The notes under the pieces are model-generated. The model had not been told where the DNA came from, did not search any database, and was given only the letters and a program-made list of their open reading frames with translations. A stretch of 50,676 nucleotides of DNA. It comes from an uncultured Erysipelotrichaceae bacterium. GTDB taxonomy: Bacteria > Bacillota_I > Bacilli_A > RF39 > UBA660. Location of the stretch: NCBI GenBank assembly GCA_902789425.1, contig CADANX010000005.1, positions 1 through 50,676 of the forward strand. Direction: 5' to 3'. A program made the translations under genes and the position numbers. Shown piece by piece: positions 35,127 through 46,285 of the stretch (positions are counted from its first letter, which is position 1; each line of letters starts with the position of its first letter).

Positions 35127-35155
35127 ATATCATGCTTATTTTAAGGGGTGTTTTT

Positions 35156-36469
35156 ATGGAAAAATTTGAAAAATTTGAAAATTATTTATTATTAAAAATA
35201 AGAGAATTAAATGATGATATAGCTACTATTATTTTTGAAAGAGATAAATATTATTATGATTATAGTAATAAAGTTCATAATGAAGATGAATCTTATAGTC
35301 TATTTAGATTTGATTCAGATAAAGTAATAAAATTATATCAAGATTTATTCTATGATATTTTACTTGAAAGAATAAATGCTAAAAAAGTAGTAGAGGAACA
35401 CAATATGGTTGTTGCTTTATTTGGTGCTCATAATGGAGATTTTGAAAAACTTTTAAAAGCAATCGAAGAAAAAGGTATTGATTATGAAAAAGTAAAAGAA
35501 AATGCTATTATTTTTAATATTTGTAAATGTTTTAGACGCTGTTTTGAAACAGAAAATCCGGACGAAAGAGAACAAAAAATTCTTGATATTTATCATAAGC
35601 AAGAAGAATATGTTGATGTTTTAAATTATTTCGAATCATTAGATTGTGATCAAATAGAATTAACATGTTCATATAAGAATGTTGTTGAAAAAATAGAATC
35701 ATACAATCCTAATTCAAGAGAACTTAATAAAATAATAAGCACTTTATTAAATAACTATTTAAAAATATCAAATGAAGGTAAAGATGTTAGTAATGCTAAA
35801 GAAATAGATTATTATGCAGAAATTGCAACTTTATTAAAAGATTATAAAGTAGAATCTATTGATGATCTTTCTGAAGATGAATTATATGTATTAATTAAAA
35901 AAATTGGTTTTAGTGAAAAGAGTATTGATAAAATTAGAAATTTAAAAAATACCGAAGAAAAAGAAGAAGTAGTAAATATTAATATTGAATCAGGACTTGA
36001 CACTTATGAAAGAAAAGAAGAAATTAATAAAGAATTAAAAGCTATTTTATCTGAATACTTTGATTTAAAAGATATGCATTTAAAAAGATTTCTAAGTAGA
36101 AAAGAGACTAATACTGTATTAATAGCACTAAATAGACTTGGATATAAAGAAGATGCAATTAGAGACTTTATTTGGGAAAATGAAGCATTATTAAATCAAG
36201 AACAATTAATTATAAAATGTAATTATATAAAAGAAAAAGCTGAATTTTATTCATCTAAATATGGTTTTGAAAAAGAATATAATGACTTTTTAGAATACTA
36301 TAATGGTTATTTTGAAACAAAAGATGAAGAAGAAAAAGCTATTTACTTAGATTTTCTTGAATTATCATATAATGAAATAAATTCCTTCTTAAACTCAATT
36401 CCAAGAACATATGAATATGAAATGAGTAAAAGTAATGATAAAAACTTTACTTTAAAAAAAGAAATGTAA
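35156..36469 (+). CDS. Unknown protein, paralogue A (between tsf and frr)
   Basis: 437 residues from ATG 35156 (AAGGGGTG ribosome binding site). Helical, acidic, no signal or membrane segment. The N-terminal ~260 residues are weakly similar to paralogue B. The C-terminal ~150 residues (from VNINIESGLDTYERKEEINKELK) are strongly shared with B: SEYFDLKDMHLKRFLSRKET, IRDFIW, NYIKEKAEFYSSKYGFE, DFLEYYNGYFE, PRTYEYEMS. Family not recognised. It lies where pyrH often sits between tsf and frr. A promoter of its own suggests regulation apart from tsf. Confidence 0.6.
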   Translation: MEKFEKFENYLLLKIRELNDDIATIIFERDKYYYDYSNKVHNEDESYSLFRFDSDKVIKLYQDLFYDILLERINAKKVVEEHNMVVALFGAHNGDFEKLLKAIEEKGIDYEKVKENAIIFNICKCFRRCFETENPDEREQKILDIYHKQEEYVDVLNYFESLDCDQIELTCSYKNVVEKIESYNPNSRELNKIISTLLNNYLKISNEGKDVSNAKEIDYYAEIATLLKDYKVESIDDLSEDELYVLIKKIGFSEKSIDKIRNLKNTEEKEEVVNINIESGLDTYERKEEINKELKAILSEYFDLKDMHLKRFLSRKETNTVLIALNRLGYKEDAIRDFIWENEALLNQEQLIIKCNYIKEKAEFYSSKYGFEKEYNDFLEYYNGYFETKDEEEKAIYLDFLELSYNEINSFLNSIPRTYEYEMSKSNDKNFTLKKEM

Positions 36470-36481
36470 GATGGTGATTAT

Positions 36482-37837
36482 ATGGAAGAAGAAATATTAA
36501 AGTATAGAACTCACATTGATGAGAAAGTAAATGAAAAATGTGATGTAATTTCAGATTATATTTATAATTTTGATAGACATTCATATGATAATTACAGAGA
36601 TAATTCTGTAATTTTAACTGATGTTAAGTTTTATAAATATTTAGAATTAAAATTAGGAAAAAAAGAGATGAATAATCTTTTTAATGAAATACTTAGAGAT
36701 GTAATACATAATAGAGTAGATATAAATGAAATTTTTGAAAGAATTAATAGTATTAAAAATGTTTATAATAATAAAGAAGAAGACTCTATATCAGCTAGAA
36801 AATGGTTAATTGATAATAATGTTTCTTTAAATGAATTAGATTATTTATATTTAGTTAATCATATAAGTTCTGCATATAAATTCTTTATTGATCATCCAAA
36901 AGAATGTGAAGTAGTAACTAAAGCACATAAAGAATTAAATTATTATATAAGTGTTTATAATGTTTTTTCAAAAGAAAATAAGATTTTGTTAGAATGTTCT
37001 TATAAAGATTTTATTTTTGAACTAAATAATTATTCAAATAAATATAAAGAATTATATGATTTATTTAATGAATTTATTAAAAGAAGTGTTAATACAAAAA
37101 ATAATTTAGGAAAAGATATTTTTTCTTTAGAATTTGATAATATTTATATAACTAGTGAAGACGCTTTAAAACATTATGAAGAATTATATGAATTATTAGA
37201 TGAACTAAATATTACATCTTTAGATAATCTTGATATAGATGAACTAATTTATGTACTAGAAAGATTTGGTTTTAGAAATGATGTTATAAATGGAATAACT
37301 ACATATTTAACAAATGAAGAGTCAACAAATAGTATTAATGTTAATATTAATATTGATTCTGGTCTTGATGAATATGAAAAAAAATCAGAATTAAATAAAA
37401 AATTAAGAGAAATATTAAGTGAATACTTTGATTTAAAAGATATGCATTTAAAAAGATTTTTAAGTAGAAAAGAAACAAATCTAGTATTAAGTATTTTAAG
37501 AGAACTATCTTATCCAGAAAGTACAATAAGAGATTTTATATGGACTAATGAAACTATGCTTAGTGACGAAATGTTAATTGTTAAGTGTAATTATATTAAA
37601 GATAAAGCAGAGTTTTATTCATCTAAATATGGTTTTGAAAGAGAATTTAGTGACTTTTTAGAATATTATAATGGTTACTTTGAATCAAAAACAAAAGAAG
37701 ATAAAGAATTATATTTAGAATTTCTTGAAGTATCATATAATGATATTAAATCAATTATGAATTTAGTTCCAAGAACTTATGAATATGAATTATCTATGAG
37801 TAATAAGAAATTAAACTTAATATTAAAAAAAGACTAA
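36482..37837 (+). CDS. Unknown protein, paralogue B
   Basis: 451 residues, 12 bp after paralogue A, so one operon. Helical. The C-terminal domain begins at INVNINIDSGLDEYEKKSELNKKLRE and repeats the blocks of A (SEYFDLKDMHLKRFLSRKET, NYIKDKAEFYSSKYGFE, DFLEYYNGYFE, PRTYEYELS). The N-terminal half is diverged. Gene duplication is certain from the sequence; the function is not known. The contrast between a conserved C-terminus and free N-terminus suggests a shared binding surface with different partners. Confidence 0.6.
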   Translation: MEEEILKYRTHIDEKVNEKCDVISDYIYNFDRHSYDNYRDNSVILTDVKFYKYLELKLGKKEMNNLFNEILRDVIHNRVDINEIFERINSIKNVYNNKEEDSISARKWLIDNNVSLNELDYLYLVNHISSAYKFFIDHPKECEVVTKAHKELNYYISVYNVFSKENKILLECSYKDFIFELNNYSNKYKELYDLFNEFIKRSVNTKNNLGKDIFSLEFDNIYITSEDALKHYEELYELLDELNITSLDNLDIDELIYVLERFGFRNDVINGITTYLTNEESTNSINVNINIDSGLDEYEKKSELNKKLREILSEYFDLKDMHLKRFLSRKETNLVLSILRELSYPESTIRDFIWTNETMLSDEMLIVKCNYIKDKAEFYSSKYGFEREFSDFLEYYNGYFESKTKEDKELYLEFLEVSYNDIKSIMNLVPRTYEYELSMSNKKLNLILKKD

Positions 37838-40211: not shown

Positions 40212-40234
40212 ATATAAAAAGGATGGTGATAGTC

Positions 40235-41533
40235 TTGAATAATGAACATGTTTTACCAGCAGATACATATACAGTAATTAATAAGTCTATTATTACTGAA
40301 TATGATAAGAAGATTATTACAATGCTATACCAACCAATAATTGGCATAAATTCATGTAATTTATATTTTTTACTTATTAATGATCTTGATAAAAATGAAA
40401 TGATAAGTGAAGAAGAAAATCATCATCATATTATTAATTCAATGAGAATATCACTAAGCGAAGTTGTTGTAGCAAGAGAAAAACTCGAAGCAATAGGACT
40501 TCTTAAAACATATTATAAACAAGATAAAACTGGTAATAATTATGTATATGAATTATTTTCACCATTAAAACCAAATGAATATTTTTCTCATCCAATACTA
40601 AATATTGTATTATTTAACAATGTTGGTAAAAAAGAGTATGAAAAACTTGTTAATTACTTTAAAATGCCAAAAGTAAAATTAAGTGATTACGAAGATGTAA
40701 CTAAATCATTTGATGAAGTATTTGAAAGTATTAGTGGTACATATTTTGAAAACAATTTACTTGATATAAAAAGAGAGAATAAATCAGATATTATTGTTAG
40801 TAATATAATTGATATAGATATGCTTATTTCATCATTTTCAAAAGATTCTATTAATAAAAGTGCATTTACAAAAGATATAAAAGATTTAATTATAAAACTA
40901 TCTTTTGTATATAAATTAGATGAAGAAGAAATGAAAAATATAATTATTAATTCATTAAATGATAAATTGTTAATTGATAAAATAGAACTTAGAAAAAATG
41001 CAAGAAATTATTATCAATTTGAAAATAGTGCAAAACTTCCAACACTAGTATATAGATCATCACCAAAAGGAATATCATCATCAATGGGTAGTTCAAAAAG
41101 AGATAAAATGATATATACTTTTGAAACAGTAAGTCCATATGACTTTTTAAAAAGTAAATATAATGGAGCAAAACCAACTGCAAGAGATATTAGCTTAATA
41201 GAAAGTTTAATGATTGATACAAATTTAAGATATCCTGTTGTTAATGTACTTATTGATTATGTAATGAAGATTAATGATAAAAAATTATCTAAAAGTTTTG
41301 TAGAAACAATCGCAGGTCAATGGAAAAGATTAAAAATAGAGACTGCTATTGATGCTATGAATCAAGCAGAAAAAGAGTATAAAAAAAATAAAAAGATAAA
41401 AGAAGAAAAAACAAAAACAACTACTAAAAAAGAAGCATCTGTACCTGAATGGTTTAATAAAGATATAACAAAAACAGAAATAACTAAAGATGATGAAAAT
41501 GAGTTAAAAGATATGCTTAAGGAGTTTAAATGA
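40235..41533 (+). CDS. dnaB: Primosomal helicase loader DnaB (Firmicutes type)
   Basis: 432 residues. TTG 40235 is chosen because AAGGATGGTGAT precedes it at the same spacing as the GTG start of dusB; an ATG at 40223 lies inside this ribosome binding site. The N-terminal winged-helix region (IITEYDKKIITMLYQPIIG...LSEVVVAREKLEAIGLLKTYY) and the C-terminal DnaD-like domain (PYDFLKSKYNGAKPTARDISLIESLM...YPVVNVLIDYVMKIN) identify it. It is not the replicative helicase of the same name in E. coli. It loads the helicase together with DnaI, encoded with a 4-nt overlap. Confidence 0.85.
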   Translation: MNNEHVLPADTYTVINKSIITEYDKKIITMLYQPIIGINSCNLYFLLINDLDKNEMISEEENHHHIINSMRISLSEVVVAREKLEAIGLLKTYYKQDKTGNNYVYELFSPLKPNEYFSHPILNIVLFNNVGKKEYEKLVNYFKMPKVKLSDYEDVTKSFDEVFESISGTYFENNLLDIKRENKSDIIVSNIIDIDMLISSFSKDSINKSAFTKDIKDLIIKLSFVYKLDEEEMKNIIINSLNDKLLIDKIELRKNARNYYQFENSAKLPTLVYRSSPKGISSSMGSSKRDKMIYTFETVSPYDFLKSKYNGAKPTARDISLIESLMIDTNLRYPVVNVLIDYVMKINDKKLSKSFVETIAGQWKRLKIETAIDAMNQAEKEYKKNKKIKEEKTKTTTKKEASVPEWFNKDITKTEITKDDENELKDMLKEFK

Positions 41534-42441
41534 TGAAAAATATAGACTATAAAAAATATGGTAAAGTTGATATTAAAAAATTACAAGATGAATTCTATGA
41601 AGCAAGAAAAGATGAAGACTTTAAAAAATTAGTTGATAGTCTTCCAATAAAAGAAGATGAACTAATAAAATATACTACTAGCTTAAAAAAAGTAGTTAAT
41701 GAAAGAAGAAATGACATTGAAAATAATCATTATCCATCAAATAAAAATGAAATACCAGGTTTTATATATAATGTAAAAATAGTTGATGGTAAATTATTAT
41801 TTTATTATGATACATGTGAAATAAAAAAAGAAGAGTTAAAAGAAATAGAATATGTAAAAAATGGTTATATGTTCGAAGTTTCTAAGAATATTAGAAATGC
41901 AAAAATGAGTGATATATATACAGATAGTAATGATAGAAAAGAAGTAATTAAATATGCAGTTAAATTTATAAAAGACTATAAATGTGGTAAACCAGTAAAG
42001 GGACTTTATTTGAATGGTAATTTTGGATCTGGTAAATCATATATAGTATCTGCAATTTTAAACGAAATAAGAAAAGATAATAGAAAAGTTGCTATGGTAT
42101 ATTATCCAGAATTTTTAAGAAGTTTAAAAACATCATTTAATTCTGATTTTGATGAGCAATTTAATTATGCTAAAAGAGCAGATTTATTATTACTAGATGA
42201 TATAGGTGCAGAAAGTACTTCATCTTGGTCTAGAGATGAAATACTAGGACCAATACTTCAATATAGAATGGATGAAAATTTACCTACATTTTTTACTTCA
42301 AATTTAACACTAGATGAACTTGAAATACATTTAAGTGAAAGTAAAGATAAAGTAGATAAATTAAAAGCTAAAAGAATTATTGAAAGAATTAAATATTTAA
42401 CAAATGATATACAATTAATAAGCGAAAATAGACGTAAATAA
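41530..42441 (+). CDS. dnaI: Primosomal ATPase DnaI, helicase loader
   Basis: 303 residues. An N-terminal helicase-interaction domain is followed by an AAA+ domain: Walker A LNGNFGSGKSY, Walker B LLLLDDIGAES, and a sensor-like FTSNLTLDEL with RIIERI near the end. Start ATG 41530 overlaps the dnaB stop (ATGA); the second ATG at 41533 is also possible. Delivers the replicative helicase to oriC and to restart sites with DnaB. Confidence 0.93.
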   Translation: MMKNIDYKKYGKVDIKKLQDEFYEARKDEDFKKLVDSLPIKEDELIKYTTSLKKVVNERRNDIENNHYPSNKNEIPGFIYNVKIVDGKLLFYYDTCEIKKEELKEIEYVKNGYMFEVSKNIRNAKMSDIYTDSNDRKEVIKYAVKFIKDYKCGKPVKGLYLNGNFGSGKSYIVSAILNEIRKDNRKVAMVYYPEFLRSLKTSFNSDFDEQFNYAKRADLLLLDDIGAESTSSWSRDEILGPILQYRMDENLPTFFTSNLTLDELEIHLSESKDKVDKLKAKRIIERIKYLTNDIQLISENRRK

Positions 42442-42460
42442 TAGTTAAGGGGATTTTGGT

Positions 42461-44281
42461 ATGAATAAGAAAAAAGATAGAAAAAGATTAAGAAAAAAAA
42501 GAAATGAATATAAAGCAAAAATAAGAAAATTATTTAAAAAATATAAAGAAATTATTAAAGAAGAAAAAGTAATTGAAAAAAAAGAAGAAGAAAAAGAAAA
42601 AAGAATATATAATCCACTAGAAAAAGAATATAACAAAATAAATGATTTTTCTAAGTATTCCACAGTTGATTTAATAAACTATTTTAAAGATATGATAATA
42701 AATTGTGATATAGATAATGATTATATGAAATGTTCTTATGAAATAATTAAAAGATTAGATTATGATAAACAATCATTTATATATGTAAGTACTATTCTTG
42801 ATGCTATAAAAATAAAAAAATATAAAGTAGATAAAGAATCAGTACAATATAATACATTAAAGAAAGTAAAAAAAATATTTAAGAATTATAAAAAATTAAT
42901 AGATATAAAAGAAGAAACACCAAATGATAATGTTTCATTAGTTAGATATAATATTATTTTTTCACTTATATTTGATGATGATAATTATTTACTAATAAAA
43001 GCACTTTTAAACAAATGTAATGACTTTTTAAATATAAGAGTAGATAATAGACATATAGTATGTTATATACTTGATGTATATTTAAAATACTTAAATGAAT
43101 TATTAAATAAGAATTATGATATAAGTGATAAAATTAATGTTGATTATATGAAAGAAGTTTATTTATTATTTATGACTGATAAAAATCTTAAATTAACTTC
43201 AAGTGATATTTTTGAAATAGAGAATAAACTTAATACTTTTATTTCAAGAATAACTAGTGAAAAAGAACAAAAGACAAAAGTCATTGATGGAGTTAAATAT
43301 AATACTATATTAATTAAATATAATAGTAAAAGAGATAAAATAATTGATAATTTAAAAACATTATATCCATCATATAAAAGAGAAAAACAATATAAATTAA
43401 GAAATTTTAGAGATTATGAATTTAAATGTAATCTTAATAGTTTAATGCATATTAGTAATAACTCATATTATGATTTGACAAATAAAGAGAGTGTTGTTAT
43501 TTCTAATCCATTTGTAAGTTATAGTTATAATAAAGAAGGTAATATTTTAAGAATTAGTATACCTGATATTTCTGATTTAATAGATGAAAATTCACCAATT
43601 GATTCTTATATGTATAATAAGACTATTAAAAGAGAAAAAATGGACGAAAGACTTGTTGAAAAATTAATATATAAAGATAATCAAGTTACTCCATCAATAA
43701 CATTTAAAGTATTACTTGATAAAAACAATGAACCAAAACATTTATATATTTATAAAAGTAAAGTAAAACCCACATTTAATATAGATTCTAATACTTATAA
43801 AGATATAGAAAATGATTTTGGACATAGAGCAGAAGAAAAAATTAATAATATATTAAATAAAGCATATTTAAATCTTGTAAAAGAAGAAAAGATACCTTAT
43901 GTATTTTCTGGAATAGAAAAAATAGATGATTTTAATAAAGATGTATTTGTAAGAATAAGTAGTTTATCACATACTTTCTCAGATGCAGATTATGATAAAA
44001 TCTATAATGTAATAACAGGTAATATTGGTGAATTTCATTATTCGAATAAAGAATTTTCTTCATCTAGTTTTAATATGAATTTAACAAGAATTAATTATAT
44101 TACTTTATTAAATTTAAGAATTATTAAAAAGATAATAATTAGTAATTTTACAAATAAAGAAGATATAAAGGAACTAATAAAAGAAGAAATAAATTCTTTA
44201 GTTGATGATTTAAATGAAAATTTAGGATATAAAAATCCAAAGACTTTATTTAAAAAAGTTCTTAAGAAAAAAAATAATTGA
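42461..44281 (+). CDS. Degenerate RNase II/R (RNB-fold)-like protein, probably without catalysis
   Basis: 606 residues, starting with a very basic coiled segment (1-50). Residues ~335-590 follow the RNB domain order: ILRISIPDISDLIDENSPIDSYMY (362-385) matches the V-H-I-A-D-V-S-x(5)-G-S-x-L-D block; FKVLLDKNNEPKHLYIYKSKVKPTF (415-439) matches the E-M-x-I-D-x-x-G-x-V-x-x-x-x-I-F-x-S-V-I block; later come LVKEEKIPYVFSG and GNIGEFHYSN. The Asp cluster that holds Mg in active enzymes is missing upstream of the first block (NKESVVISNPFVSYSY instead), and the T-S-P-I-R-R-Y element is replaced by SSSSFNMNLTR. Gene lies 19 bp behind dnaI. Interpretation by remembered motif order; profile search needed. 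Confidence 0.55.
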   Translation: MNKKKDRKRLRKKRNEYKAKIRKLFKKYKEIIKEEKVIEKKEEEKEKRIYNPLEKEYNKINDFSKYSTVDLINYFKDMIINCDIDNDYMKCSYEIIKRLDYDKQSFIYVSTILDAIKIKKYKVDKESVQYNTLKKVKKIFKNYKKLIDIKEETPNDNVSLVRYNIIFSLIFDDDNYLLIKALLNKCNDFLNIRVDNRHIVCYILDVYLKYLNELLNKNYDISDKINVDYMKEVYLLFMTDKNLKLTSSDIFEIENKLNTFISRITSEKEQKTKVIDGVKYNTILIKYNSKRDKIIDNLKTLYPSYKREKQYKLRNFRDYEFKCNLNSLMHISNNSYYDLTNKESVVISNPFVSYSYNKEGNILRISIPDISDLIDENSPIDSYMYNKTIKREKMDERLVEKLIYKDNQVTPSITFKVLLDKNNEPKHLYIYKSKVKPTFNIDSNTYKDIENDFGHRAEEKINNILNKAYLNLVKEEKIPYVFSGIEKIDDFNKDVFVRISSLSHTFSDADYDKIYNVITGNIGEFHYSNKEFSSSSFNMNLTRINYITLLNLRIIKKIIISNFTNKEDIKELIKEEINSLVDDLNENLGYKNPKTLFKKVLKKKNN

Positions 44282-44306: not shown

Positions 44307-44513
44307 AAATTTAGATGCGTTTATATGAGACACGTTTATTAAAATAATATTTTGTAGAGAGCTTATGGTTGGTGAAAATAAGTAATATGTTTAATAAATA
44401 CTACTCATTCAGCAGAAATCACAAAAAGGTTTCCGGTTAGCAGCCGTTATCAAATTAAGTTAAACAAAGGATGGTACCGCCATTATGGCTCCTTATATAC
44501 CATTCTTTTTTTT
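44307..44513 (+). promoter_or_regulatory. T-box leader of thrS
   Basis: Stem I elements (GTAGAGAGCTTATGGTTGGTGAAAA) are followed by tandem ACT codons (44400-44405) in the specifier region, which fit threonine. The antiterminator/T-box sequence AAAGGATGGTACCGCC lies at 44466-44481. The terminator is GGATGGTA (44469-44476) with TACCATTC (44498-44505), then eight T. Uncharged tRNA-Thr should stabilise the antiterminator and switch thrS on. Confidence 0.92.
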
Positions 44514-44527
44514 AGGAGGAAAATAAG

Positions 44528-46285
44528 ATGATTAATATTAAAGAAAATGAAAACTTAGAAATACTAAATCATAGTTGCGCACACTTACTTGCACATGCTA
44601 TTAAACATTTATATCCAGATGCTAAACTTTGGGTAGGACCTGCTATTGAATCAGGATTTTACTATGATATAGATATGGGTGATAAAGTAATTACTGAAGA
44701 TGATTTAGAAAAAATACAAAAAGAAATGAAAAAAATCGCTAAAAGTGATAAAAGAATTACTAGAATAGAATTAACTAAAGAAGAAGCACTTGAAACATTT
44801 AAAGATAATCCTATGAAAGTAGAATTAATAGAAAATATTCCAGATGGAGAAACTATTAGTGCTTATAAACAAGATGATTTTATTGATTTATGCCGTGGCC
44901 CACATATGCCTACTACTAAATCAATGAAGTATTTTAAATTACTTAAATTTTCTGGTGCATACTATAAGGGTGATTCTAAGAATAAAATGCTTCAAAGAAT
45001 ATATGGTGTTTGTTTTGAAACAGAAGAAGATTTAAATGAATACTTAAAGGAACTTGAAGAAGCTAAAGAAAGAGATCATAGAAAAATAGGTAAAGAACAA
45101 AACTTATTCTTTACTCATAAATTAGTAGGTGCAGGTCTTCCATTATTTACACCAAATGGAGCAACAATTAGACGTAATCTAGAAAGATATATTCAAGATA
45201 AAGAACTATCTCAAGGATATAAACACGTATATTCTCCAGTTTTAGCATCAACTGAAATGTATAAAATAAGTGGACACTGGGATCATTATAAAGATGATAT
45301 GTTCCCAATAATGAAACTTGATAATGAAGATTTAGTATTAAGACCAATGAATTGTCCTCATCATGCACTTATATATAAAAATGAACTTCACTCATATAGA
45401 GATTTACCTGTTAGAATGGGCGAAATAGCTAATGTATTTAGATATGAAGCTTCAGGTGCTGTATGTGGTCTTGAAAGGGTTAGACAAATATGTCAAAATG
45501 ATGCACATTTATTTGTTAGACCAGATCAAATAGCTGAAGAAGTAGGTAATGTAATTAACCTTATTTTTGAAGTATATATAAAAGATTTTGGATTTTCTAA
45601 AGATTCATTTAAATTTAGATTATCAAAAAGAAGTAAAGAAAAAGAAAAATATATAGATAATGATGAAATGTGGGAAACAGCAGAAAGTCAATTAAAAGCA
45701 ATTATGGATAAGCTTGAACTTGACTATTATGAAGAAGAAGGCGAAGCTGCTTTTTATGGACCTAAAATAGATATTCAAATTAAGACTGCTTTAGGACATG
45801 ATATAACAATTCCAACATGTCAACTTGATTTTTCTCTACCAGAAAGATTTGATTTAACTTATATAGATGAAAAAGGTGAAAAAGTAAGACCAGTTGTAAT
45901 TCATAGAGCAATACTTGGTTCATCAGAAAGATTTATGTCTTTCTTACTTGAAGAAAAGAAAGGTATATTACCACTATTTTTAGCACCAGTTCAAGTAAAT
46001 ATAGTTCCTGTTAATATGGAATATCATTTAAGATATGCAAAAGAAATAAAAGAAGAACTTCAAAAGAACTTAATAAGAGTAGAACTTGATGATAGAGATG
46101 AAAAAATGAACTATAAAATACGTGAATCTGTAACAAGAAAAATTCCAATTACTATAATACTTGGAGATAAAGAAAAAGATAATGAAAATATATCTTATAG
46201 AAAGTATGGTAGTGAAGAAACTGTTACTGTTTCTAAAGACGATTTTATAGTACTTTTAAAAAATCAAATAGATAACTATAAATAA
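44528..46285 (+). CDS. thrS: Threonyl-tRNA synthetase lacking the TGS domain
   Basis: 585 residues (usual 640). It begins almost directly with the editing domain (HSCAHLLAHAIKHLYPDAKLWVGPAIESGFYYD; H-x3-H zinc/editing motif), so the N-terminal TGS domain is absent. No longer start exists because the T-box terminator sits just upstream. The class II core is complete: MNCPHHALIYK (zinc Cys), FRYEASGAVCGLERVRQICQND (motif 2), VVIHRAILGSSERFMSFLLEEKKG (motif 3), then an anticodon-binding domain. Controlled by a T-box. Confidence 0.96.
   Translation: MINIKENENLEILNHSCAHLLAHAIKHLYPDAKLWVGPAIESGFYYDIDMGDKVITEDDLEKIQKEMKKIAKSDKRITRIELTKEEALETFKDNPMKVELIENIPDGETISAYKQDDFIDLCRGPHMPTTKSMKYFKLLKFSGAYYKGDSKNKMLQRIYGVCFETEEDLNEYLKELEEAKERDHRKIGKEQNLFFTHKLVGAGLPLFTPNGATIRRNLERYIQDKELSQGYKHVYSPVLASTEMYKISGHWDHYKDDMFPIMKLDNEDLVLRPMNCPHHALIYKNELHSYRDLPVRMGEIANVFRYEASGAVCGLERVRQICQNDAHLFVRPDQIAEEVGNVINLIFEVYIKDFGFSKDSFKFRLSKRSKEKEKYIDNDEMWETAESQLKAIMDKLELDYYEEEGEAAFYGPKIDIQIKTALGHDITIPTCQLDFSLPERFDLTYIDEKGEKVRPVVIHRAILGSSERFMSFLLEEKKGILPLFLAPVQVNIVPVNMEYHLRYAKEIKEELQKNLIRVELDDRDEKMNYKIRESVTRKIPITIILGDKEKDNENISYRKYGSEETVTVSKDDFIVLLKNQIDNYK

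Follow-up and report, generated by a model that had tools for sequence, protein, structure and literature searches.

A putative RNase R descendant with an erased active site encoded behind the helicase loader genes dnaB and dnaI

What kind of protein is encoded directly behind dnaB and dnaI in an uncultured Erysipelotrichaceae bacterium, and what might it do there? The locus lies in a contig stretch of 50,676 nt (CADANX010000005.1), referred to here as the window, with all features of the locus on the forward strand. The dnaB gene (40223..41533; helicase loading/DNA remodelling protein, 436 aa) matches NCBIfam NF052657 with E 7.6e-86 and overlaps by 4 nt with dnaI (41530..42441; primosomal protein/helicase loader, 303 aa), which matches PRK08939 with E 5.7e-73, above its cut-off; the first-pass annotation had therefore correctly placed its candidate, a catalytically dead RNase R, directly behind this gene pair. 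The candidate gene, P0001 (42461..44281), is separated from dnaI by 19 nt and preceded by a putative ribosome-binding site AAGGGG (42447..42452), 8 nt 5′ of its ATG. According to the list of open reading frames and the translation it is an intact frame of 606 aa starting with ATG, and its strong codon-position signal (GC of 28, 19 and 6% at the first, second and third positions) gives it the composition of a real gene. Downstream there are a T-box leader (44311..44496), matched by Rfam RF00230 at E 1.3e-15 with a score of 70.5 bits that falls short of the gathering score of 93, and the conserved neighbour thrS (44528..46285), an open reading frame that we take to encode threonyl-tRNA synthetase on recognising its sequence and from the leader in front of it, and that was used as the query marking the same neighbour in other genomes. 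Since thrS is separately controlled by the T-box leader, the dnaB-dnaI transcript probably has P0001 as its final gene. The corresponding order in Bacillus subtilis is presumably dnaB-dnaI-ytxC-thrS, with ytxC in the same dnaI-thrS slot; P0001 has no YtxC match in Pfam and is unrelated to it.

Single-sequence searches of Pfam, NCBIfam and PDB with P0001 gave no match. CRISPR matches in PADLOC and NCBIfam (Csm3, Cas8e; E 0.006-0.02) were at chance level, and the sole match of the contig search, L005 from Scalindua, was discarded as a chance match to MutL. A defence or phage-related protein could be suspected from fast evolution, patchy presence and the fast turnover at the locus, where the content of the slot changes, but with a PADLOC match no better than chance and a housekeeping neighbourhood conserved across the family we regard such an origin as highly improbable.

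The link to RNase R was reached through gene order, a recognisable RNB protein being encoded directly behind dnaI in several related genomes. Relatives of P0001 itself are few and distant: a search of 60 related genomes yielded two, L003 with 774 aa and L004 with 788 aa, and the identity to the nearest relatives is about 27%. When compared by hhalign with a profile of 69 RNB paralogs, P0001 alone aligned over 454 columns (prob 97.6, P 4.4e-12), and a profile made of P0001, L003 and L004 gave P 4e-21 against nine paralogs and P 4e-24 against the 69. Both halves of the protein contribute separately, the N-terminal paralog profile matching the three-sequence profile with P 4.9e-11 (2.9e-7 for P0001 alone) and the RNB-half profile with P 8.4e-14 (3.2e-6 for P0001 alone). 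None of the hhalign controls went below P 0.05, whether P0001 in reverse or shuffled five times, the three-row profile in reverse, or four other proteins of the window, and L003 was recovered independently by an N-terminal profile lacking it (2e-11). The 69 paralogs in turn match canonical RNase R with P 1e-68 in a profile-profile comparison, and an 11-row paralog profile that includes P0001 and its two relatives matches the solved RNase R (8cdu, 7e-65) as well as structures of Dis3, RNase II and SSD1. The direct comparison with canonical RNase R is weak for the three-sequence profile (P about 1e-4) and not significant for P0001 alone, and a PDB search with the three-sequence profile returned chance matches only, so that the kinship is demonstrated through the paralog intermediates. 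The RNase II/R block order that had been read by eye in the 606-aa protein is upheld by the alignment over both halves, and the RNB match expected from it is found through the paralogs, not in Pfam, NCBIfam or single-sequence PDB searches. The single-sequence AlphaFold2 model of P0001 is uninformative (pLDDT 36), and the RNB fold is assigned from the profiles. On these sequence comparisons P0001 is a distant descendant of RNase R (Rnr; TIGR02063, PF00773 RNB), the presumed ancestor with which it has the order of RNB elements in common, by way of lineage-specific paralogs.

The architecture of the protein differs from that of RNase R. Residues 1-338 (42461..43474), defined by the match to the N-terminal paralog profile, comprise a coiled/helical stretch and a paralog-specific helical domain, and occupy the place of the RNase R cold-shock/OB domains; residues 339-606 (43475..44278), defined by the RNB-half profile match and alignment, form the degenerate RNB domain. 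No Pfam match to CSD2, OB_RNB or S1 was found in P0001, in which no S1 domain follows the RNB half, and the helical N-terminal domain of the paralogs gave no family or structure match. In a class-wide sample of 296 genomes the N-terminal profile was found only in the family of the window (f1), where at least 87 of 282 genomes, from 56 of 150 genera, have it; this figure is a rough minimum, because the profile misses P0001 itself, although a few of the weakest matches may come from the linker in canonical RNase R. The paralog family has lost the cold-shock and S1 domains of RNase R and carries in their stead a helical N-terminal domain, which P0001 has in common with the other paralogs together with the RNB half.

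The catalytic elements have been erased from this scaffold, as the first-pass annotation had proposed for both the Mg-binding Asp cluster and SPIRRY. In the alignment the canonical IDGADTKDIDDA becomes IS-------NPF in P0001, the loop bearing three of the Asp residues (residues 344-356, SVVISNPFVSYSY; 43490..43528) being shortened by about seven residues, and the four catalytic positions read S-NP versus DDDD. No Asp or Glu is present between E343 and E359, so the cluster could not be restored by any nearby alternative alignment. The IPDISDLIDENSPID block, earlier listed among the RNase II/R blocks, is indeed an RNB element; it corresponds to HIADVxxYVxxG, a strand located after the Asp cluster, and not to the cluster itself. 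The SPIRRY element (paralog consensus TSPIRRYxDLxNQR) reads RINYITLLNLR in P0001 (residues 543-553; 44087..44119), where the RR pair is replaced by -N and both arginines are gone. The strands and helices flanking the active site stay recognisable by profile. A normal RNase R, whose presence elsewhere in the genome had been left to be checked, was found: it has 708 aa, scores 816 bits against TIGR02063, contains the cold-shock/OB and S1 domains, and reads IDGADTKDIDDA and TSPIRRF. It has the four Asp, the SPIRRY element and the accessory domains, all missing from P0001 with its helical N-terminus, and it is encoded between secG-like and smpB-like genes, whereas P0001 lies behind dnaI.

With its active site erased, P0001 is not expected to degrade RNA in the manner of RNase II. 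It could still be a nuclease with a remodelled active site, as may be the case for family members with DEDD or DVDD, and many paralogs do retain the SPIRR arginines along with three or four acidic residues; P0001, however, is without all four Asp, its loop is shortened and its arginines are lost, and its nearest relatives L003, L004 and L261 have no recognisable Asp cluster either, which makes this the least credible of the readings considered.

The family in which the site was lost was followed through 94 RNB paralogs gathered in the bacterial family of the window. Sixty of them are the gene immediately after dnaI, in most cases followed at once or almost at once by thrS, so that the dnaI adjacency that was to be checked in related genomes is borne out, and 34 lie elsewhere; the order dnaB-dnaI-[RNB paralog]-thrS recurs across the family. 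Among the dnaI-adjacent paralogs the last two Asp are present in 45/60, four acidic residues in 18/60 and DDDD in 1/60, and four acidic residues are kept in 19 of the 34 paralogs located elsewhere. The second Asp is most often changed (to Glu, Val, Cys and others). On the paralog tree P0001 groups with L261, L003, L004, L265 and L279 (97% SH-aLRT), all with altered sites, and the active-site state changes at least 19 times; the tree is a quick one with degenerate rows on long branches, which makes the exact branching unsure. The nearest sequence, L261, comes from another genus and also has the order dnaB-dnaI-X-thrS. In the P0001 subclade the site has been erased while the RNB scaffold has stayed recognisable by profile, in a family whose member is usually the third gene of dnaB-dnaI-X in front of a T-box-controlled thrS. 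An 809-aa gene behind dnaI in another genome (G021) is linked weakly (P 0.0012 to the paralog profile, BLAST 1e-15 to L279), and its catalytic alignment is not trusted.

Such loss of catalytic residues could also be expected of a decaying gene without function, a reading favoured by the very fast divergence of P0001 and the completeness of the loss. Against it, the 606 codons are open at 6% GC3 and clearly biased by codon position, both halves are retained in homologs of 600-800 aa from other species, in one case with the same neighbours, and close-relative pairs with altered sites show dN/dS of 0.10 to 0.42. These ratios were obtained by the Nei-Gojobori method with our own script from pairs outside the branch of P0001, which has no sufficiently close pair of its own; they range from 0.16 to 0.42 among the pairs in which one or both of the last two Asp are missing or the second has become Lys. 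The altered-site relatives are under purifying selection, and the low dN/dS means that loss of the catalytic residues in the family was not a loss of function. Decay is accordingly disfavoured, and we consider it very unlikely.

The content of the dnaI-thrS slot varies. Four genomes of the same genus (G002, G006, G007 and G010) have there one or two copies of an unrelated family of 340-360 aa with no known match (L036:1617-3725, L037:1946-2962, L038:1584-3665, L040:1387-2442); these proteins were tried as degenerate RNB paralogs and rejected (hhalign P ≥ 0.1). A family of small proteins (about 165 aa) is repeatedly encoded either immediately in front of thrS or immediately after the RNB paralog (L044:1812-2309, L046:1625-2113, L048:1960-2442, L004:3548-4066). 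Runs of secreted or pilin-like genes stand behind dnaI in three further genomes (L056, L061 and L066 in G032, G031 and G018, respectively), so that the dnaI-thrS gap looks like an insertion hot spot in several genomes of the family. Outside this family, 20 dnaI neighbourhoods were taken from the rest of the class, and where thrS follows, no RNB-sized gene was found between it and dnaI.

Some degenerate paralogs are physically joined to a complete RNase R, and in genus g3 three species carry the two as a one-frame fusion (L108:3110-6961 in G013, L258 in G182 and L259 in G283; open frames of 1278-1292 aa), the second and third fusions being 64-70% identical to the first. The degenerate half reads DLED and TTPARNY and the RNase R half DDDD and SPIRRY, with 659 bits against TIGR02063, over the cut-off; the degenerate half, which belongs to a different and less degenerate branch than P0001, has dN/dS of 0.12 to 0.22. 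In L267 and L263 an RNB gene with DDDD follows downstream of a degenerate paralog, immediately in L267 and after one intervening ORF in L263. This arrangement points to degenerate paralogs working alongside an active RNase.

The loss of catalysis on an RNB scaffold has precedents. The fungal RNase II-family pseudonuclease Ssd1 of yeast, a Dis3L2 relative with cold-shock domains, has lost all four acidic residues, keeps the RNB scaffold and binds RNA uncut on its outer surface (PMC8934651). Zam, a cyanobacterial RNB member found alongside a normal Rnb, has a degenerate active site and is proposed to lack nuclease activity; it still has CSD1, CSD2 and S1 and works by way of cysteines of CSD1, a domain with two conserved redox cysteines (PMC9145284). 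P0001 resembles Ssd1 in the loss of acidic residues on a kept scaffold, as far as its profile-based fold goes, and the paralog profile matches the Ssd1 structure 7am1 with 2.5e-14; it differs in having no cold-shock domains. Like Zam it is a bacterial degenerate RNB protein beside a normal enzyme, in another phylum and without CSD1, CSD2 or S1. Dead RNB proteins being known, the first-pass claim of a new kind of protein was too strong. New, as far as our searches reached, are the lineage, the operon, the graded series and the architecture, i.e. a new helical domain with no cold-shock or S1 domains, at a recurring place in a core replication operon; beside the fungal and cyanobacterial pseudonucleases of the literature searched, the family is an independent bacterial case.

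By these precedents and the signs of work alongside an RNase, the best-supported mechanism would be that of a non-cutting RNA-binding or RNase-steering protein. Like Ssd1 or Zam, P0001 may bind RNA without cutting it, or it may dock with the active RNase R and so steer or limit it; the RNase R fusions and the active-looking RNB neighbours in L263 and L267 slightly favour the RNase-partner version. Speaking against RNA binding, P0001 lacks CSD and S1, the domains known to bind RNA in such proteins. That P0001 is a pseudo-exoribonuclease arisen from lineage-specific RNase R paralogs and serving as an RNA-binding or RNase-partner regulator is a proposal in which we have roughly even confidence.

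A replication role, for which gene order is the evidence, would be a different matter. The RNB scaffold could serve as an adaptor of DnaB/DnaI or bind RNA primers or R-loops at the fork, which would explain why P0001 stays behind dnaI; the 60 adjacent paralogs of 94, the recurrent dnaB-dnaI-X-thrS order, and the short gap and good ribosome-binding site, which suggest co-expression, are in its favour. The other 34 paralogs lie elsewhere, however, several genomes of the same genus have an empty slot or the unrelated 340-360-aa protein, other families of the class do without an RNB paralog, and gene order alone is weak evidence, so we consider a replication factor unlikely. Similarly doubtful is the idea that the family has evolved a dedicated non-catalytic RNase R paralog, co-produced with the helicase loader, through which RNA turnover is coupled to replication; the paralog would either regulate RNase R as one of its subunits, a role to which the fusions point, or handle fork RNA with DnaB/DnaI. 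If such coupling were true, the family would be a natural enzyme-to-pseudoenzyme series.

The dozens of intermediates between DDDD and an erased site form a series suited to tracing how an exonuclease turns into a non-enzyme and for what reason, and the family is a ready case for asking if RNase R works with protein partners in these bacteria. Its extreme members are missed completely by annotation with family models.

Two minor observations were made. A second altered type of RNase R, of about 670 aa with DTDD and SPxRS, is encoded in G006, G007 and G010 directly behind infC- and rplT-like genes (L104:3537-5549, L105:3484-5487, L106:3565-5565); most of its length aligns with canonical RNase R by profile. 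In the window itself, two paralogous ORFs in tandem (445 and 451 aa; 35132-37837), upstream of an frr-like gene, have a common C-terminal block, EYFDLKDMHLKRFLSRKETN.
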